From Tomitella fengzijianii (GTDB taxonomy: Bacteria; Actinomycetota; Actinomycetes; Mycobacteriales; Mycobacteriaceae), in NCBI RefSeq assembly GCF_007559025.1, contig NZ_CP041765.1, positions 1,050,679-1,114,678 on the forward strand: a stretch of 64,000 bases of DNA. The letters are read 5' to 3'. A program made the translations under genes and the position numbers. Of the stretch, positions 37,725 to 47,497 are shown in pieces; within the stretch, counting starts at the first letter, position 1; every line of letters begins with the position of its first letter. The notes below the pieces were generated by a model that was given only the letters and a program-made list of their open reading frames with translations, ran no database searches and had not been told where the DNA came from.

Positions 37725-37844
37725 CGGTCCTCCAGGTCGGCGCTGCGGGTGAGGATGCGGGCGCCGCCGTCCAGGTCCGGGTGTGGCGCGCAGCGGCATC
37801 GGTGCTGTTCGTGACGTGGATCTCGAAAAGCTCTTGCCTAGAAC

Positions 37845-37858
37845 CGTAACACGTTCTA
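37845..37858. promoter_or_regulatory. KstR-type operator between echA19 and fadD19
   Basis: CGTAACACGTTCTA matches TnnAACnnGTTnnA except the first base. It ends 11 bases before the fadD19 GTG and about 120 bases before echA19 on the other strand. The closeness to the fadD19 start implies a leaderless transcript with the operator over the promoter. Confidence 0.82.
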
Positions 37859-37869
37859 GTTTGGATCGT

Positions 37870-39504
37870 GTGGCCCTGAATATCGCTGACCTCATCGAGC
37901 ACTGTGTCGACCTCGTGCCGGATCGGATCGCCATCGAGTCCGGCGACCGTGCGTGCACCTACGCGGAGATGGACGAGCGCGCCAACAGGCTTGCGCACCA
38001 TCTGATCGCGGAGGGCGTGCGCCCCGGCGACCGCGTCGGCCTCTACAGCCGCAACACGATCGAATGCATCGTGGCCATGATCGCCATCTTCAAGGCGCGC
38101 GCGGTCATGGTGAACGTGAACTACCGGTATGTGGAAAAGGAGCTCACCCACATCCTCGACGACTCCGACGCGGTGGCGCTGATCTACGAGCGCCAGTACT
38201 CGGACAAGGTCGCGGCGATCCTGCCGGGCCTGCCGCTGATCGCCGCCACCGTGGTCATCGAGGACGGCACCGACACCCCCTACGGGACGCACGGTGCGGT
38301 GCGGTACGACGACGCGCTGGCCGCGCAGCCGGGCGGGCGATCCTTCGGCGAGCGTTCCGGAGACGACCTCTACTTCCTCTACACCGGCGGCACCACCGGC
38401 ATGCCCAAGGGCGTGATGTGGCGCCAGGAGGACGTGTGGCGGGTGCTCGGCGGCGGGATCAACTTCGTCACCGGCGAGTACGTGGCGGACGAGTGGCAGC
38501 TGGCCCAGGAAGGCGCCGGCAACCCGCAGATGGTGCGCTACCCCATCCCGCCGTTCATCCACGGCGGATCGCAGTGGGCGGTGTTCCAGAGCCTGTTCAC
38601 CGCGGGCAAGGCCGTGGTCTATCCGGAGTTCGACGGCGACGTCGCCTGGCGGATCATCGAGAAGCACGGGGTCAACGTGCTGTTCATCGTCGGCGACGCG
38701 ATGGCCCGGCCCATGATCGACGGTCTGCTGTCCGGTGACTACGACACGTCCACCCTCTACGCCATCGCCTCGAGCGCAGCGCTGTTCTCGCCGTCGGTCA
38801 AGCGCCAGTACCTCGACGCGCTGCCGAACACCGTGCTCACCGACTCGATCGGGTCGTCGGAGACGGGATTCTCCGGCATGGGTCTGATCACCAAGGACAC
38901 CGAGCTGGATGCGGGCCCGCGGGTGAAGATCGACGATTCCACTCAGGTCCTGGGCGAGGACGGCGACCCCGTCGAGCCAGGCTCGGGCCAGGTGGGCCTG
39001 CTCGCGCGCTGCGGCATCCTGCCGATCGGCTACCACAAGGACGAGGCGAAGTCGGCCAAGACGTTCAGGACCATCAAGGGCGTCCGCTACTCGATCCCCG
39101 GCGACTACGCGACCGTCGACGCCGACGGCACCGTGACGATGCTGGGCCGCGGCTCGGTGTCGATCAACACCGGCGGCGAGAAGGTCTTCCCCGAGGAGGT
39201 CGAGGGCGCCGTCAAATCGCACCCCGGCGTGTTCGACGCGCTGGTGGTGGGCATCCCGGATGACAGGATGGGCAGTGCCGTCGCCGCGGTGGTGGCGGTG
39301 CGTGACGATGCGGTGCCCTCGTTCGAATCGGTGGACTCCGCCGTGCGCGAACACATCGCCGGCTACAAGACGCCGCGCGCCCTGTGGTTCGTCGACGAGA
39401 TCAAGCGGTCGCCGGCCGGGAAGCCCGACTACAAGTGGGCCAGGTCCGTCACCGAATCCCGCCCCGCCGATGCCCGCAAGGCCGCTGCGGCCTCCAACTC
39501 CTGA
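37870..39504 (+). CDS. fadD19: Steroid side-chain acyl-CoA synthetase, FadD19-like
   Basis: A 544-residue AMP-forming acyl-CoA synthetase. The ATP loop is [17 protein letters not shown], then [11 protein letters not shown] (A5 motif), [20 protein letters not shown] (A7/A8) and the catalytic lysine near the C-terminus in [12 protein letters not shown]. FadD19 activates the C26 carboxylate of 3-oxo-cholestenoic acid and needs C24-branched handling in Rhodococcus. GTG 37870 gives a length within four residues of the mycobacterial enzyme. It starts right behind a KstR box. The gene for a nitronate monooxygenase follows after eight bases. Confidence 0.93.
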
Positions 39505-39512
39505 GGACATTC

Positions 39513-40637
39513 ATGCGCACCCCTATCTGCGAGCAGCTCGGCATCGAACGGCCGGTGTTCGGCTTCACCCCTTCCGAACACGTGGCGGCCGCCATCAGCC
39601 GGGCCGGCGGGCTGGGCGTGCTCGGCTGCGTCCGGTTCAACGACCCCGACGAGCTCGAGGCCACGCTGGCCTGGATGGACGAGAACACCGACGGCAAGCC
39701 CTACGGGGTGGACGTCGTCATGCCGGCCAAGGTGCCCACCGAGGGCGGGCAGACCGATCTCGAGTCGATGATCCCGCCGGAGCACCGCGCATTCGTCGAC
39801 CGCACCCTGAACGACCTCGGCGTGCCGCCACTGGACACGTCGGACGAGCATGCGGCCGGCGTGCTCGGCTGGCTGCACTCGGTGGCCCGCGCACAGGTGG
39901 ACGTGGCGCTGCGGCACCGTCCCGCGCTCATCGCCAACGCGCTCGGCTCCCCGCCGGCGGACATCATCGGCGAGGCGCACGAGCACGGCGTCCCGGTGGC
40001 GGCGCTGGCCGGCGCGGTGTCGCACGCGCTGCATCACGTGGACAGCGGCGTCGACATCGTCATCGCCCAGGGGTACGAGGCGGGCGGTCACACCGGTGAG
40101 ATCGCGTCGATGGTGCTCGTCCCCGAGATCGTCGATGCCGTGCAGGCGGCCGCCGGCGACCGGGTCTCGGTGCTCGCGGCCGGCGGCATCGGCAGTGGCC
40201 GGCAGATCGCGGCGGCGCTGGCCCTGGGCGCGGCCGGCGTGTGGATGGGCTCGTACTGGCTCACGGCCTCCGAATACAAGCTGGGCAGCGCGTCGGGGGA
40301 GGGGCCGTCGACGATCCAGCGCGCGCTGCTCTCCGCCACGTCCTCGGACACGGTGCGCAGTCGCGTCTACTCGGGCAAACCCGCACGGTTGCTCAAGACC
40401 AAGTGGACCGAGGCGTGGTCCGCGCCCGGCGCGCCCGATCCGCTTCCGATGCCGCTGCAGAACATCCTGGTCAGCGAGGCTCACCAGCGGATTTCCGCCG
40501 CGGACGACCCGGAGGTGGTGGCCATGCCGGCCGGCCAGATCGTGGGCCGGATGAACGCCATCCGCCCGGTGGCCGAGAGCATGGACCTGCTCGTCGGCGA
40601 GTACGAGACGGCGGTGCGGCGGCTGGCGGGGTTGTAG
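39513..40637 (+). CDS. Nitronate monooxygenase (2-nitropropane dioxygenase family)
   Basis: A 374-residue FMN TIM-barrel protein. Family segments are PVFGFTPSEHVAAAISRAGGLGVLG at the N-terminus (split by the FMN contact), DIVIAQGYEAGGHTGEI with the conserved GGH, and VLAAGGIGSGRQIAAALALG with GVWMGSYWL for the phosphate of FMN. Members oxidise alkyl nitronates, but many actinobacterial ones have unknown substrates. It appears co-transcribed with fadD19 and so under KstR control, hinting at a steroid-linked role rather than nitroalkane use. That is inference. Confidence 0.87.
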   Translation: MRTPICEQLGIERPVFGFTPSEHVAAAISRAGGLGVLGCVRFNDPDELEATLAWMDENTDGKPYGVDVVMPAKVPTEGGQTDLESMIPPEHRAFVDRTLNDLGVPPLDTSDEHAAGVLGWLHSVARAQVDVALRHRPALIANALGSPPADIIGEAHEHGVPVAALAGAVSHALHHVDSGVDIVIAQGYEAGGHTGEIASMVLVPEIVDAVQAAAGDRVSVLAAGGIGSGRQIAAALALGAAGVWMGSYWLTASEYKLGSASGEGPSTIQRALLSATSSDTVRSRVYSGKPARLLKTKWTEAWSAPGAPDPLPMPLQNILVSEAHQRISAADDPEVVAMPAGQIVGRMNAIRPVAESMDLLVGEYETAVRRLAGL

Positions 40638-40644
40638 AGCACGC

Positions 40645-43323
40645 TCAGTCCGTCACCCGGAATATCCCGTGCGCCCCGCGCTCGGCGTCCACCATCGAAT
40701 GGTCGACGAAGGGATAGTGCCCGGCCTCGGGGAAGGTGAGCTCGACGAAGCCGCCCTGGGCGGGCCCCAGGTCCAGCGCCTGGCTGCCGCCCTTCGACGG
40801 GTTCCCCGGGCGCAGCAGGTAGGCGCCCTCCTTCCATACGGTGTCGAACTGCCCGCCGATCACGTGGAACGTGGTGCCGTCGTTCGGCCCGGCCGCCAGC
40901 ACCCAGATCCGCACCCGCTCACCGGCCTTCGCGGTGAGCGGGTCGTGGTCGTACTGGTTCGGGTAACCGTTGAACACCACCAGGTCCGGCCGCTCGGCGT
41001 TGATCTTGGCCTGGTCCGCGATGGCGCCGTCGGCGCCCAGGTACTCCTCGGACTGCACCAGCACGTACTCCTCGTCCACCGGGGGCAGGTCCGGCGGGTC
41101 GATGACGACGGCGCCGAACATACCGTTGGCGATGTGCAGCGACATCGGCATGGTGGAGCAGTGGTAGAGCCAGATGCCGGACTTCGTCGCGGTGAACGTG
41201 TATGTGAGCGATTCGCCCGGCGCGATGCTGCGCATGGGTCCGTCCGGCGCCAGGCTGCCGGCGTGGAAGTCGATCGAATGGTCCATGGTGGCGTCGTTGC
41301 GGAGCGTGATCTCGAACGTGTCGCCCACCTTTCCGCGCAGCACGGGCCCGGGGACGGTGCCGGCCTGCCCGTCGATGCCGTAGGGCCACAGCGTCTGGGT
41401 GAACCCCGGCGCCACCTGGATCTTCTCGTCGCGTACATCCAGCGTGACGCGGTGCACCGTGGGCCCGGCGCCGGGCGATTCGACGGCCGGGGCCACGGAG
41501 GCATCGCGCGCCCGGAAACCGGGGCCGGGGTCGGCGAGCAGTTCCGGCAGGCCGGGCACGGGGGCACCGCCTGCCCGCGCCGCGTCCGGGCCGGTTGCGG
41601 GCTCCGACTCGTCCGCGCCCACCGCGTCGATGCGCAGCACCATGCCCATCTGCCGGTGGCCGGCGATGTCGCACCAGCCGTCGACGTCGCCGTCGATCAC
41701 GCCCGCGTCGATGCGCGCCGATTGCCCCACCGCCAGCCGCGGCGAGCGGGCGCCGTTGGCGAGGACGAGATCGTGGCGCTGATCGCCGGTGTTCGTCAGC
41801 TCGATGATCAGGTTGTCGCCGCGCGGAACCTCGATCGGTGTGCCGGCGCCGAGGGTGCGGCCGTCGGCGCCGACGAACCGCATGCCCTGCACGTGCAGCG
41901 CTACCGTCGTCGTCTCGCCCGTCGACCGGCCGTCGGGCCCCGCCGCCTGCGCGGCGGCGCCGGAGTCGAGGCCCGCGGCGGCCGGGTCGACCGCGACCCC
42001 TGCCGCCGCGACGAGCACCGCGACGGCGAGCCCGGCGAGCGCGTGGCCCAGGCGCCGGCCCTGGTAGTGGTCGACGCGTGCGCGGCGGTCGGGCGGGGTC
42101 ATCGGGCCCGACCCGGCCCGGCGCGCCATCACCCATGCCCGCACCAGCAGCGGGATGAACGCGGCGAGCCCGACCACCACGACGATCCAGGAGAACTGCT
42201 GCACGCGGGGCGGCGTCGGCAGCACGGCGAGCAGCAGCGCCGCGTTGACCATGGCGATCCGGGCGACGGCGAGGGTGTCGAGGACCTTCGTCGCCTGCTG
42301 CGTCGCCGACGGCCGCGAGCCGAGGACCACCGGCATGAGATATGACAGCGCCCCCAGCAGCACCTGCGCGAGGAATCCCGCGACCAGTGCGGGGACGATG
42401 CCGCGGAGCGTGTCCTCGGCGGACGACCACGCGGCGGGGCCGCTGTGCGAGGCGGCCACCGCCATGCCCACGGTCAGCGTGACGAGGGACCCGGCCAGCC
42501 AGGCGACCCCGGCGAGCACCGACAGCGGCGGGAAGTGGAGCGGCTTCTTGCGGCGGGCCTCGTCGAGGTGCGGCCACAGCACGTACCCGACGGCGGCGGT
42601 GTAGGCGGCGACCCCGGCGGCGGTGAGCCAGGCGAGTCCGCCCAGCGCGCCCCCCACCGCGACGGCGAGCGCGGCGATGAGGGCGGGCAGGCCCCGCTTG
42701 GCCGCGTCCTCCACTCCGGAACCGATGCGGGTGCGCAGGATCGTCGCCCAGAGCGTGACGAGGGTCCCGAGCACGGTGAGCCCGATCCAGCCGAGCACGT
42801 TGAGCATGGCGTGCGCGACGATGAACCGCGAATACCAGTCGCCGGGCAGCCGGCCCCAGGCCATCGCGGCGCCCAGTCCCGCGCCGATCGGCAGCATCAG
42901 GCCGGCGGCGGCGTAGAAGCGCACCATGGGGCCGAAGCGCGAGGGCAGTGCGTGGCGCAGCCGGTGGGCCATGGCCGCGCCGTGCCACAGGGCCACGACG
43001 CCCACCACGGAGGCGCCGGCCGCGGTGGCCTGCCAGGTGTCCGTGAGAACTCCGGCGACCACCGTGACCGCGCCGGCGTTGAGCCCGGCCAGCCGGGCGG
43101 TCTGAGTGCGCCGGCCCTGATCGCGGCCCATCTTGAGCATCGCCTCGGTGAAATACCAGCTCCAGATGAGGATGGCGTTGGTGGCGGCGCCCAGCCCCAG
43201 CAGGTGCACGAGAAGCCAAGGCGACTGCGGGATCTGCTCGTGGGCGGCGGCCACGACGGCGAGCGCGACCAGCCACGCGGCGACCACCGAGCCGGTGCGC
43301 AGATGCCAGGTGCTCAGCTTCAC
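40645..43323 (-). CDS. Membrane-anchored NirK-like multicopper protein
   Basis: An 892-residue fusion. Residues about 1-455 form ten or more transmembrane helices with repeated histidines (VHLLGLG, LWHGAAMAH, FIVAHAMLN) resembling NnrS/heme-copper-type membrane domains. Residues about 480-600 form a cupredoxin-like unit (LHVQGMRFVGADGR). The C-terminal 270 residues are a two-cupredoxin Cu nitrite reductase fold: type 1 Cu ligands His682, Cys722, His730, Met735; type 2 ligands His687, His721, His875; and Asp685. The second catalytic residue, His in classical NirK (IGGHGD), is Gln825 here (IGGQFD). Nitrite-to-NO reduction is therefore plausible, not certain. GTG 43323 overlaps the upstream stop. 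Confidence 0.85.
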   Translation of the reverse strand: MKLSTWHLRTGSVVAAWLVALAVVAAAHEQIPQSPWLLVHLLGLGAATNAILIWSWYFTEAMLKMGRDQGRRTQTARLAGLNAGAVTVVAGVLTDTWQATAAGASVVGVVALWHGAAMAHRLRHALPSRFGPMVRFYAAAGLMLPIGAGLGAAMAWGRLPGDWYSRFIVAHAMLNVLGWIGLTVLGTLVTLWATILRTRIGSGVEDAAKRGLPALIAALAVAVGGALGGLAWLTAAGVAAYTAAVGYVLWPHLDEARRKKPLHFPPLSVLAGVAWLAGSLVTLTVGMAVAASHSGPAAWSSAEDTLRGIVPALVAGFLAQVLLGALSYLMPVVLGSRPSATQQATKVLDTLAVARIAMVNAALLLAVLPTPPRVQQFSWIVVVVGLAAFIPLLVRAWVMARRAGSGPMTPPDRRARVDHYQGRRLGHALAGLAVAVLVAAAGVAVDPAAAGLDSGAAAQAAGPDGRSTGETTTVALHVQGMRFVGADGRTLGAGTPIEVPRGDNLIIELTNTGDQRHDLVLANGARSPRLAVGQSARIDAGVIDGDVDGWCDIAGHRQMGMVLRIDAVGADESEPATGPDAARAGGAPVPGLPELLADPGPGFRARDASVAPAVESPGAGPTVHRVTLDVRDEKIQVAPGFTQTLWPYGIDGQAGTVPGPVLRGKVGDTFEITLRNDATMDHSIDFHAGSLAPDGPMRSIAPGESLTYTFTATKSGIWLYHCSTMPMSLHIANGMFGAVVIDPPDLPPVDEEYVLVQSEEYLGADGAIADQAKINAERPDLVVFNGYPNQYDHDPLTAKAGERVRIWVLAAGPNDGTTFHVIGGQFDTVWKEGAYLLRPGNPSKGGSQALDLGPAQGGFVELTFPEAGHYPFVDHSMVDAERGAHGIFRVTD

Positions 43324-44471
43324 GGCGCCTCCGCCTTCTGTGGAACGGGTTCGGGGGCCGAGGTGCCCTTCGTGCGCCGGTCCGGCCGCGAACCGAACAG
43401 CACCGATCCGGCGGCCACGACGACGAAGGCCAGCAGCGCGGCCACGTTGAGCACGCCGCCCCACTGCAACAGTGCGTCGACGCCGCGGGCGTCACCGCCG
43501 ATGATGCGCAGGGCCAGGGACGCGTGCAGGAGGATCGCCGGGGCGTACATGGCCGGGCGGTAGGGGAGGGGGCGGCGCAGAACCGCGGGGAAGATGATCG
43601 GGGCGTGCGCCATGATCATCGAGATGACGAACCCCAGCAGCACGGCGTGCACGGACGCGTCGTAGAGCGGGCCCGAGCGCACGGGGCCGGCGACGACCCA
43701 GATCAGCGCGGTGACGGTGAGCCAGGCGTACCCCGCGAGCAGGCAGGCCGCCGAGAACCGCGGCAGGCCGGAGGCGCGGACAGTCTTCATCGCGATGTCG
43801 TAGCGCAGCAGCCAGGCCACCAGCGCCGCGAGCGCGAGCCCCAGAAGCGGATAGCCGACCTGGGGCCAGAGCAGCGTCGCGAGCGTGCCCAGGATGACGG
43901 CACCCGCGATCCCGAGCGCGTAGGGCTGTGCGCGCGGATCGGTGAGCGCCACGTGCGCCAGCTCCAGCCGCTCGCCGGCGATGGTGAGCACCAGGAACCC
44001 GACCAGCCAGGGCAGCAGCCACGGGACGTCGACCCCGCCGAGCCACAGTCCGGTCCCGCCCAACGCGAGAACGCCGCCGGCGGCCTGCACCAGCACCGCG
44101 GGCTGCGCATTGCGGCGCCACAGCGGGAGGTACACGGCGACCAGCGCGGCCGTGCCGACGACGAAGAGCACGGCACCGACGTCCCGGGGTGCGGGTGTCA
44201 GCAGCAGGATCGCCCCGCCGCCCAGCGCCGCCGGGGCGAGAAAGCCCCATGTGCGGCCCAGTGCCACCGCGCGCTCTACGGACACGACGGTGCCGACGAA
44301 GCCGAGCACCATGAGAACGCCGTGCAGCGAGGTGAGCGACAGGTCCCGGACCGGGGCGCCCACCCCCAGCAGCAGGAGTGCGGCGTCGAGCCCGGCGAGC
44401 AACGCGACGCCGCCGGGCGCCAGCAACAGCAGGCGCACCCGGCGGGTGGCCTGCAGGCCGTCGGAGCTCAC
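43320..44471 (-). CDS. Polytopic membrane protein, NnrS-like (tentative)
   Basis: A 383-residue, highly hydrophobic protein with about 10-12 predicted helices. Segments SLHGVLMVLGFVGTVVSVERAVALG, ASVHAVLLGFVISMIMAHAPIIFPAVL and ILLHASLALRIIGG carry histidines on helices and resemble NnrS, a heme- and copper-containing protein linked to NO stress. Assignment rests on pattern and context rather than a firm motif. It overlaps both neighbours by GTGA, so regulator, this protein and the multicopper protein form one leftward operon. Confidence 0.7.
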   Translation of the reverse strand: MSSDGLQATRRVRLLLLAPGGVALLAGLDAALLLLGVGAPVRDLSLTSLHGVLMVLGFVGTVVSVERAVALGRTWGFLAPAALGGGAILLLTPAPRDVGAVLFVVGTAALVAVYLPLWRRNAQPAVLVQAAGGVLALGGTGLWLGGVDVPWLLPWLVGFLVLTIAGERLELAHVALTDPRAQPYALGIAGAVILGTLATLLWPQVGYPLLGLALAALVAWLLRYDIAMKTVRASGLPRFSAACLLAGYAWLTVTALIWVVAGPVRSGPLYDASVHAVLLGFVISMIMAHAPIIFPAVLRRPLPYRPAMYAPAILLHASLALRIIGGDARGVDALLQWGGVLNVAALLAFVVVAAGSVLFGSRPDRRTKGTSAPEPVPQKAEAP

Positions 44472-45325
44472 GCCGGGTCCTGCGGTGCGCCCGCGGGGCC
44501 CTGCCCTCCGCAGCCGCAGCCCGAGTCCGTGCCGCCCGGGTTGTCGCGGGGCCGGACGGGGGTGATCTCCAGGCGGCACGCGTCCGGCTCGGCGAATGCG
44601 GTCAGCGTGCTGGCGTGCGGGTCTCCGCCGAACTCGGCGAGCGCGCCGCGCACGATGCCGCGGTGCACCGTGCAGACGACGTCGGGATAGGTGCGCGCGG
44701 CGTCGATCAGCGGGCATTGGCGCAGCGAAACGCCGTCGCCGCGGAGCGTGGGCGCGAAGCCGAGCTCGGTGAGCAGCTGCACCAGGCGCTGCTCGGGGGT
44801 GCCGGTGCCGCGGTGCTCTCGGGCGAGGTTGCGGCCCCACTCGACGCCCGCTGCGAGACCGTCGCGCTCCACGTCGGTGCTGACCCGCCGGAGGATCGAC
44901 GCGAGCGACATCGCGAGTCCGGCGTAGTCGCGCAGCCGCGGATCGGCGTGCGGGGTCGCGGGTCCGGCGGAGTCCCCCGCGGCGTAGATCCACGCGGGGC
45001 GGCCGCGACCTCGCGGGGCCGCACGGCGCCGTTCGACGTATCCGTCCGCGGCCAGCGCATCGAGGTGCTCGCGCAGCGTGTTGGCGTGCAGGCCCGACTC
45101 CTCGGCGAGCTCGGATATCCGGGCGCCGTCCGGATGGCGCCGCAGCCGGTCCAGGACGGCGGCACGCTGGTCGGACAGGTGGGCGACGGGGGGCGGCGCC
45201 GCGCGGGGGCCGCGGTGGCGTAGCGCGGCCCTGCGTCCGGTCGGGCGGGCGCGTCCCGCCGGGCCTTCCCCGCCCGCCGGGTCCCGGTGCCCTCCCGGAT
45301 CCGCATTATTAATCACGGAATCCAC
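44468..45325 (-). CDS. Cysteine-containing winged-helix regulator (SufR-like)
   Basis: A 285-residue regulator. A winged helix at about residues 48-110 (HLSDQRAAVLDRL, ISELAEESGLHANTLREHLDAL, GYVERRR) is followed by a sensor region with Cys204, Cys218 and Cys250, a spacing like SufR-type iron-sulfur regulators (QCPL-x11-C), and a CGC tail. It probably senses redox, NO or iron-sulfur status and controls the adjacent nitrite/NO genes. The annotated GTG 45325 leaves only 29 bases to the divergent reading frame and gives a disordered N-terminus; GTG 45187, just before the HTH, is a better biological start in my view. Confidence 0.8.
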   Translation of the reverse strand: MDSVINNADPGGHRDPAGGEGPAGRARPTGRRAALRHRGPRAAPPPVAHLSDQRAAVLDRLRRHPDGARISELAEESGLHANTLREHLDALAADGYVERRRAAPRGRGRPAWIYAAGDSAGPATPHADPRLRDYAGLAMSLASILRRVSTDVERDGLAAGVEWGRNLAREHRGTGTPEQRLVQLLTELGFAPTLRGDGVSLRQCPLIDAARTYPDVVCTVHRGIVRGALAEFGGDPHASTLTAFAEPDACRLEITPVRPRDNPGGTDSGCGCGGQGPAGAPQDPA

Positions 45326-45490: not shown

Positions 45491-46273
45491 ATGACGACCA
45501 ACGATGTGGTCATGGCGACCAGCGCAGACGACGCCCACGCGGTGGACGGGCTGCGGGTGCAGCATGCGGAGATCACCGGGCGGCTCGCGGGGGTGGCCGA
45601 CGCACTGCGCGGCGCCGCGGGATCGGCCGGGCCGGAGTTCGACCGGGCGTTCACGGGGGCGCGCGATCATGTGGGCGGCGGCCTGCGCGCCTACCTCGAC
45701 GCGGCGGACGACGCGATCTACGCGGCGGCCCGCACGGTCCCGGCGACGAGGCTGCTCGCCGAGGCGCACCGCGTGTCCGGCCCCGGGATCCACGAGCAGA
45801 TCCGCAGGCTGGTCGATGCCACCGAGCGTCCCGAGGCCATCGCCGCCGCCGACGCGGTGTCCGCGCTGGTGCGTGCGCGCCTGGCGGTGGAGGACGAGGT
45901 GCTGCTGCCCGCGCTCGCGGGGGAGAAGGACGTGGACCTGGCCGCGTTGGCAGCGCGGCTTCCCGACCCGTTCGCGGGCAGCACGCCGCCCGCGGCGGGC
46001 GGGGCCGGCGGCCACGTGGGCTGCGCGTGCGGCGAGCACGACGGGCCGGAGGCGCCCGAGCTCGACGTGCGCGCGATCCCGCACGCGATCCGGCACGCGA
46101 CGGTGTTCGGCGCCTTCGACGCCGTCCCGGCGGGCGGTTCGATGGTGCTGGTCGCGCCGCACGACCCGATCCCGCTGCTGCACCAGCTCAACGAGCGTGC
46201 ACAGGGGCGCCTCGAGGTGTCCTACGAGGAGCGCGGCCCCGAAGCCTGGCGATTGCGCCTGGCGCGGATCTGA
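45491..46273 (+). CDS. Hemerythrin-like/DUF2249 protein
   Basis: A 260-residue protein. Residues about 10-165 are helical with spaced His and Glu (QHAEITGRL, ARDHVGGGLRAYL, HEQIRRLV, VEDEVLLPAL), resembling a hemerythrin-like metal-binding domain though not all ligands are clear. A GHVGCACGEHDG hinge follows, then a DUF2249 domain (ELDVRAIPHAIRHATVFGAFDAV to VSYEERGPEAWRLRL). DUF2249 genes are often beside nitrite and NO metabolism genes. It diverges from the SufR-like regulator, which likely controls it. Confidence 0.82.
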   Translation: MTTNDVVMATSADDAHAVDGLRVQHAEITGRLAGVADALRGAAGSAGPEFDRAFTGARDHVGGGLRAYLDAADDAIYAAARTVPATRLLAEAHRVSGPGIHEQIRRLVDATERPEAIAAADAVSALVRARLAVEDEVLLPALAGEKDVDLAALAARLPDPFAGSTPPAAGGAGGHVGCACGEHDGPEAPELDVRAIPHAIRHATVFGAFDAVPAGGSMVLVAPHDPIPLLHQLNERAQGRLEVSYEERGPEAWRLRLARI

Positions 46274-46354: not shown

Positions 46355-47497
46355 TCAGCCCGCGATCTGCGCGCCGATCCGGGTCAGTTGCGCAGTGGCG
46401 GACCCCAGGCGGAACTCGCCGGTCTTGGCGGCGAGGAAGTACCGGTGCACGGGGTGGTCCCGGTCCAGTCCCACGCCGCCGTGCACGTGGACGGTGGTGT
46501 GCGCCACGCGGTGCCCGGCGTCCGCGGCCCAGAACTTGGCGATGCGCACGGCGTCGTCGGCGTCGAGCCCCTCCGCCAGCCGCCAGGCGGCCTGCTCGAA
46601 CGTCAGCCTGGCGGCCTTGACGTCGATGAACGCGTCCGCCAGCCGCTGCGCGACGGCCTGGAAACTGCCGATGGGCCGGTCGAACTGTTCGCGTTCGCGC
46701 GCGTACTCGGCGGTCAGCTCGAGGGAGCGTTCGAGTACGCCGAACTGCTGGGCGCACAGCCCCACGGTGCCGTGCTGCAGGATGCGGGTGAGGACGGCCT
46801 GACCGTCGGCGTCGGGTCCGGGCCCGTCCACGGCGCCCAGCCGGGCGCCGTCCGGCACCGTGACCGCCTCCAGGTCGACGGCGGCGAGGCTGCTGTGGTC
46901 CGTGCCGTCCTGCCGGGTGATCCGCACCTCCGTCGCCGGCACGACGAACACGCCGACCGGTCCCTGGTCCCGGTCCGCGCCCACGAGCGTGGCCGGGACC
47001 AGCATCGCCTCGCACTCGTCGGCGAAGGGCACGGCGGTCTTGCCGCCGCTGAGCACCCAGTGACCTCCGTCCGCGCTCCGGGTGGCGGTGGTGGCGGGTG
47101 CGGACGGGTCCGCGGTCAACGACTCCTCGAGTGCCGCGGTGAGGATCGTCTCGCCGTCGGCGGCCCGGCAGGCCAGCTCCACGTGTGCGGGGGAGCCGTA
47201 CGTCGCCAGCGCATCCGCCGCCATCACGATCGACGGAAGGTAGGGGGTGCCGGCCAATGCGCGGCCGAGCTCGCGCAGGACGGCGGTCTGCTCGAGAATC
47301 GAGAACCCGCCCCCGGCGGGGGCGGGCACGGCCGCCGAGAGGATCCCCGCATCGGCCAGCGCGGCATGCAGGGCGCTGTCGAAGCGGCCGGGCACCTCGT
47401 CGAGTTCCTGCTGGCGATCGGGGGTGCTGAGCTTCTCGCAGATGTCGCGGGTGAGGCCGGCGAGATCGTCCTGGGCCTCGGTTCGGGTGAAATCCAT
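46355..47497 (-). CDS. fadE27: Acyl-CoA dehydrogenase subunit, FadE27/ChsE5-like
   Basis: A 380-residue acyl-CoA dehydrogenase-fold protein. The C-terminal helical region has YAREREQFDRPIGSFQAVAQRLAD and VHVHGGVGLDRDHPVHRYF. It lacks an obvious catalytic Glu, in keeping with ChsE5 (FadE27), which pairs with ChsE4 (FadE26) as a heterotetramer to dehydrogenate the cholesterol side-chain CoA ester. It lies 57 bases after fadE26 on the same strand as in Rv3504-Rv3505. ATG 47497 fits family start. Confidence 0.92.
   Translation of the reverse strand: MDFTRTEAQDDLAGLTRDICEKLSTPDRQQELDEVPGRFDSALHAALADAGILSAAVPAPAGGGFSILEQTAVLRELGRALAGTPYLPSIVMAADALATYGSPAHVELACRAADGETILTAALEESLTADPSAPATTATRSADGGHWVLSGGKTAVPFADECEAMLVPATLVGADRDQGPVGVFVVPATEVRITRQDGTDHSSLAAVDLEAVTVPDGARLGAVDGPGPDADGQAVLTRILQHGTVGLCAQQFGVLERSLELTAEYAREREQFDRPIGSFQAVAQRLADAFIDVKAARLTFEQAAWRLAEGLDADDAVRIAKFWAADAGHRVAHTTVHVHGGVGLDRDHPVHRYFLAAKTGEFRLGSATAQLTRIGAQIAG

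Follow-up and report, generated by a model that had tools for sequence, protein, structure and literature searches.

Gene organization of the nirK locus

We analysed a 64,000-nucleotide stretch of the Tomitella fengzijianii genome (the window), in which one reverse-strand gene encodes a membrane domain, a cupredoxin and a NirK-like copper domain in a single chain. The reading frame given in the first-pass annotation, complement(40645-43323) with a GTG start and 892 aa, was confirmed, and the initial MKL of relatives falls where this GTG lies. As had also been described there, the copper domain is joined to a cupredoxin and a large multi-helix domain, in which we find 12-13 helices. The features of the locus are listed below, with residues numbered along the 892-aa protein.

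40645..43323, minus strand: whole gene, membrane domain plus cupredoxin plus NirK, 892 aa (open reading frame, GTG start at 43323)
42088..43323, minus strand: 12-helix membrane domain, residues 1-412, predicted heme-copper-oxidase (HCO) subunit I fold
43204..43206, minus strand: His40, helix 2, present in 39 of 39 family sequences
42982..42984, minus strand: His114, helix 4, kept in the fused clade (19 of 39) and absent from most separate copies
42811..42813, minus strand: His171, helix 6, present in 39 of 39 family sequences
41989..42069, minus strand: 13th helix, residues 419-445, predicted to take the chain to the outside
41620..41922, minus strand: cupredoxin, residues 468-568, type 1 site H517, C551, H556, M561
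40648..41469, minus strand: two-domain NirK core, residues 619-892 (Pfam, TIGR02376, PDB and fold matches)
41269..41271, minus strand: catalytic Asp685 (alignment with class I NirK and residue table)
40864..40866, minus strand: catalytic His820, in FHVIG, present (alignment, residue table and PMC4770552)
40849..40851, minus strand: Gln825, a variable position (alignment and residue table)
43320..44471, minus strand: NB, 383-aa membrane protein encoded upstream of nirK and distantly homologous to the membrane domain
44468..45325, minus strand: winged-helix (IclR/MarR-like) regulator, kept beside relatives
45491..46273, plus strand: hemerythrin-like plus DUF2249 protein, divergent neighbour

The stop of NB overlaps the nirK start as GTGA, and the winged-helix regulator likely belongs to the same operon as these two genes. 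The flanks (37783-40637 and 46355-47497) encode lipid and acyl-CoA metabolism, namely an acyl-CoA synthetase, an NMO-family flavoprotein and an acyl-CoA dehydrogenase, so that the nirK cluster forms an island of about four genes. The nearest match of the 892-aa protein is in Tomitella cavernea (88% in the best segment). Elsewhere, the genome encodes narG and one aa3 COX1, and no nitric oxide reductase (NOR) of the COX1 family was found in it. A second full-length membrane-fused NirK is present in the same genome (C1:1647835-1650450, L029), about 44-48% identical; this copy retains all ligands, has no adjoining NB gene and has an MFS transporter gene upstream.

The first-pass annotation had considered such a single-polypeptide fusion unusual. 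However, a NirK of about 900 aa with a transmembrane domain of about 400 aa, a CX4HX4M cupredoxin and a clade II core was reported earlier for Propionibacterium (Cutibacterium) acnes and Actinobacteria (PMC4770552), and so the fusion itself had been described before. The domain order reported for the P. acnes protein is that of the protein studied here, a likeness drawn from the published description rather than from its sequence. The same paper calls the 400-aa membrane domain 'of unknown function' (PMC4770552).

Copper sites of the NirK core

The C-terminal copper domain matches Pfam Cu-oxidase_3 (1e-13), and the NirK family model TIGR02376 is matched at 1e-47 with 163 bits, below its curated cut-off of 296 bits; the protein is thus not assigned to TIGR02376, although it is a NirK by its residues and fold. 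The best PDB match by sequence is the NirK 2dv6 (1e-45). By structure, this Hyphomicrobium denitrificans enzyme (HdNirK) was again the best match to the core and cupredoxin (E 1.6e-28). The NirK core fold was recovered with AniA and Geobacillus NirK as well, the E values for the three lying between 1e-28 and 1e-20. Like the Tomitella protein, H. denitrificans NirK (2dv6, 6tfo) has an N-terminal cupredoxin ahead of the NirK core, but it is soluble and without the membrane domain.

All copper ligands of the core are in place, with H682, C722, H730 and M735 at the type 1 site and three histidines, H687, H721 and H875, at the type 2 site, and the residue table bears out the earlier statement that these and Asp685 are present. 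The IGGQFD motif with Gln at 825 is likewise there. It was proposed in the first-pass annotation that this Gln replaces the catalytic His, casting doubt on nitrite as the substrate. We find instead that the catalytic His of NirK, the one in the TRPHL and SSFHV motifs (PMC4770552), corresponds to H820, five residues earlier. When the protein is aligned to a pair of rhizobial class I NirKs, TTFHVIGGQFDTVW pairs with TRPHLIGGHG[ED]YVW. H820 then falls on the catalytic His and Q825 on the second His of class I IGGHG, which is not catalytic; the misregistration arose from aligning on that second His of HLIGGHG. In a set of 47 related rows, some of which repeat one locus, every row retains the catalytic His. 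The equivalent of Asp685 is absent only in a decayed Speluncibacter copy (L009) and a two-domain oxidase (L027). The residue at 825 varies between Q, I, V, L, H and F, and GGQFD, GTQFD or GAQFD is the usual form among membrane-fused actinobacterial NirKs. Since H820 and Asp685 are retained and position 825 is variable, the copper site looks fit for nitrite, and the Gln, a false lead, gives no ground to doubt that substrate. The idea of Gln825 as a lost catalytic residue was ruled out by the class I alignment and the residue table. The enzyme is best explained as a copper nitrite reductase that is anchored in the membrane, forms NO and belongs to the actinobacterial part of clade II NirK.

The Speluncibacter jeojiensis locus (L009:6001-8166) keeps the membrane domain and NB, while the cupredoxin is gone and the NirK lacks its catalytic Asp along with two of the type 2 His; this NirK is decayed or repurposed.

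Fold, conserved residues and topology of the membrane domain

NirK entries crowded the fold search of the full-length model, and the membrane domain was therefore modelled alone (AlphaFold2, residues 1-440, 14 rows; pLDDT 77.6, pTM 0.80). All 50 of the 50 VIA-align matches listed for this model are HCO subunit I chains, including CcoN (8smr_E, Z 26.2; 3mk7_A, Z 26.1; 369-371 residues, with 3.8 A and 12% identity for 3mk7_A), NorB (4xyd_A, Z 24.0) and bovine COX1 (Z 23). The top 14 Foldseek matches are likewise HCO subunit I, at modest E values of about 0.01-0.07 and probabilities of 0.98-1.00. Sequence profiles tie the domain to HCOs weakly (hhalign P 6e-4), and a comparison with a single NnrS gave P 0.38. 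Pfam searches of 13 membrane-domain and 12 NB members returned nothing consistent, and no PF00115 match for the membrane domain. Overall, residues 1-412 are predicted to adopt the HCO subunit I fold, resembling CcoN (3mk7, cbb3) and NorB (4xyd, cNOR) in the 12-helix arrangement (Z 24-26) and in the histidines of helices 2 and 6, but differing from both in lacking the helix 7 and 10 His ligands, in the low identity (11-14%) and in the missing PF00115 match.

A single-sequence search found many separate copies of the domain, about 410 aa long, across the phylum. Five residues, H40, H171, R129, F58 and P331, do not vary among 39 family sequences, and Q320 is almost always kept. In HCOs, helix 2 carries the low-spin heme His and helix 6 a CuB/FeB His, and H40 and H171 fall in these two helices as assigned by helix order rather than by superposed residues. 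Helices 7 and 10 hold four of the six ligands in HCOs and NORs. We looked for two His in helix 7 and for HxH in helix 10, and found no conserved His there in the 39 sequences. With these ligands missing, the membrane domain is unlikely to be an oxidase or an NO reductase; it may have lost its oxygen- or NO-reducing centre and may hold a single cofactor near the outer face. NO-reductase activity of the domain was considered as a candidate and rejected on the same missing ligands.

The count of Lys and Arg in the loops is 26 on one side versus 4 on the other, which under the positive-inside rule predicts a chain with its N terminus inside, 13 helices and the copper domains outside. H40 and H171 would then lie near the outer face, on the same side as the copper domains. 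The suggestion in the first-pass annotation of a membrane domain for electron entry with histidines gains weight from the predicted HCO fold and the two invariant His near the outer face; binding of heme or quinol we infer. The comparison by structure and alignment with NirK and oxidases that it had proposed supports a NirK-like core with Asp in place of the oxidase His, and gives no lost catalytic His.

In Prescottella subtropica (L017:5995-7671) a complete 559-aa open reading frame consists of the membrane domain and cupredoxin without a NirK core.

NB and the exchange of membrane modules

NB lies directly upstream of the NirK gene at nine loci (L001-L003, L005-L007, L009, L020 and L031). 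NB and the membrane domain are distantly homologous; the hhalign comparison of the two was weak with few rows and reached P 2e-5 over 357 columns with 38 rows. NB conserves H50, H275 and H289. The second helix-10 His of CcoN lies +5 to G-aromatic and +20 to P, and H275 is spaced in the same way. In Bifidobacteriaceae (L010, L011, L013), with the genera Galliscardovia and Aeriscardovia, it is NB that is fused to the cupredoxin and NirK instead of the membrane domain, and no member of the membrane-domain family was found in the genomes of these two. The bifidobacterial NB fusions are nested within the fused branch of the NirK tree, where support of 98/95 applies to the whole branch; this takes in two MAG sequences whose membrane domain is of a third, divergent version. 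Galliscardovia has cytochrome bd and lacks ferrochelatase, and Aeriscardovia has a ferrochelatase relic only and no bd. With no intact ferrochelatase in either, heme there would be scavenged or absent.

The third version of the membrane domain occurs in actinobacterial MAG NirKs (L012:2-1240 and L015:4504-5952), basal to the fused branch, and its helix 10 has GHAHK, which contains HxH.

At six further loci (L047-L051 and L053) the membrane domain is a separate gene adjoining NirK-like or cupredoxin genes. Regulators of the Rrf2 family, which includes the NO sensor NsrR, are common at loci with the separate gene. NB and the membrane domain are also neighbours at L061:2987-5275, where nirK is missing and an Rrf2 (NsrR-like) regulator and a DUF2249 gene adjoin them; such a pair may act in NO biology in its own right.

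Proposed electron supply to NirK

The literature consulted left open how NirK is supplied with electrons in these Gram-positives and what the 400-aa membrane half does. We consider it fairly probable that the membrane domain and NB form an electron-transfer module feeding the cupredoxin and NirK, for which we infer heme and quinol. In this scheme the quinol pool (or another membrane donor) would reduce a b-type heme or comparable cofactor that the membrane domain, NB or both carry close to the outer face. The electrons would then move on through the cupredoxin type 1 copper and the NirK type 1 copper to the type 2 copper, where nitrite would be reduced to NO. The layout would be that of cytochrome-oxidase subunit I and its cupredoxin in reverse, with the membrane part as electron donor rather than acceptor. 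The NirK end of this mechanism is well supported, and the membrane end is suggested by the fold, the His conservation, the topology and the repeated linkage of the domain or NB to nirK (fused, adjacent, with the GTGA overlap, or swapped). Against such a path, both bifidobacteria with NB fusions are poor in heme equipment, and the extra cupredoxin of Hyphomicrobium NirK was reported as not needed, being too far for efficient transfer, with a type 1 mutant that is more active (PMC4770552). More tentatively, and at less than even confidence, this degenerate HCO-fold family, fused, exchanged or separate in nirK loci, could be a dedicated quinol-side donor, such that actinobacterial NirK respiration would bypass cytochrome bc1 and soluble carriers.

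The membrane domain could instead be an anchor or a maturation module (for example, for copper loading or NO handling), with NirK taking its electrons from soluble cupredoxins or cytochromes. Consistent with this, the whole family has only two invariant His, the NB fusion and its His persist in bifidobacteria that are poorly or not at all equipped for heme, the pair at L061 occurs without nirK beside an Rrf2 regulator, and some actinobacterial NirKs (L014, L016, L018) show no membrane domain in the chain. We nevertheless regard it as rather unlikely, as the domain is repeatedly tied to a cupredoxin in one chain or operon and has an HCO fold in which the helix 2 His is kept and the His are placed at the outer face.

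Two other readings appear far less plausible. A bifunctional chain, with the NO from NirK being reduced further to N2O by the HCO-fold domain, would agree with the NorB match at Z 24.0 and with the lack of a COX1-family NOR elsewhere in the genome, but it is very improbable given that only the helix 2 and 6 His are kept. Equally little credence is due to the proposal that the copper enzyme is something other than a nitrite reductase, such as a laccase-like oxidase, on account of a catalytic His changed to Gln. Residue 825 is indeed Gln and the TIGR02376 score is under the cut-off, but His820 and Asp685 are present, residue 825 is variable and the nearest structures are NirKs. Laccases and two-domain multicopper oxidases differ at the Asp position, the two-domain oxidase L027 having a His there, the trinuclear-site residue, where the Tomitella protein has Asp685.

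For the electron-transfer module, a degenerate subunit I fold with two named invariant His and swapping modules makes the question of electron supply answerable by mutation and spectroscopy. The actinobacterial NirK type itself was known. What appears to be new is the HCO-like reading of its membrane half, as drawn from the model, and a literature search outside subscription papers found no such reading.

A related membrane protein in a rhizobial nirK cluster

In a rhizobial nirK cluster that also has NnrS, a membrane protein annotated as hypothetical (L045:136-1485) is flanked by DUF2249 genes. It groups with the membrane domain at P 2e-12 in a three-member set that includes it and at P 0.004 alone. 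By profile, and in its position beside nirK, it is thus like the membrane domain, but it is a separate gene, comes from a proteobacterium and is a weak match alone. DUF2249 genes are common to this rhizobial cluster and to the Tomitella neighbourhood (45491..46273).
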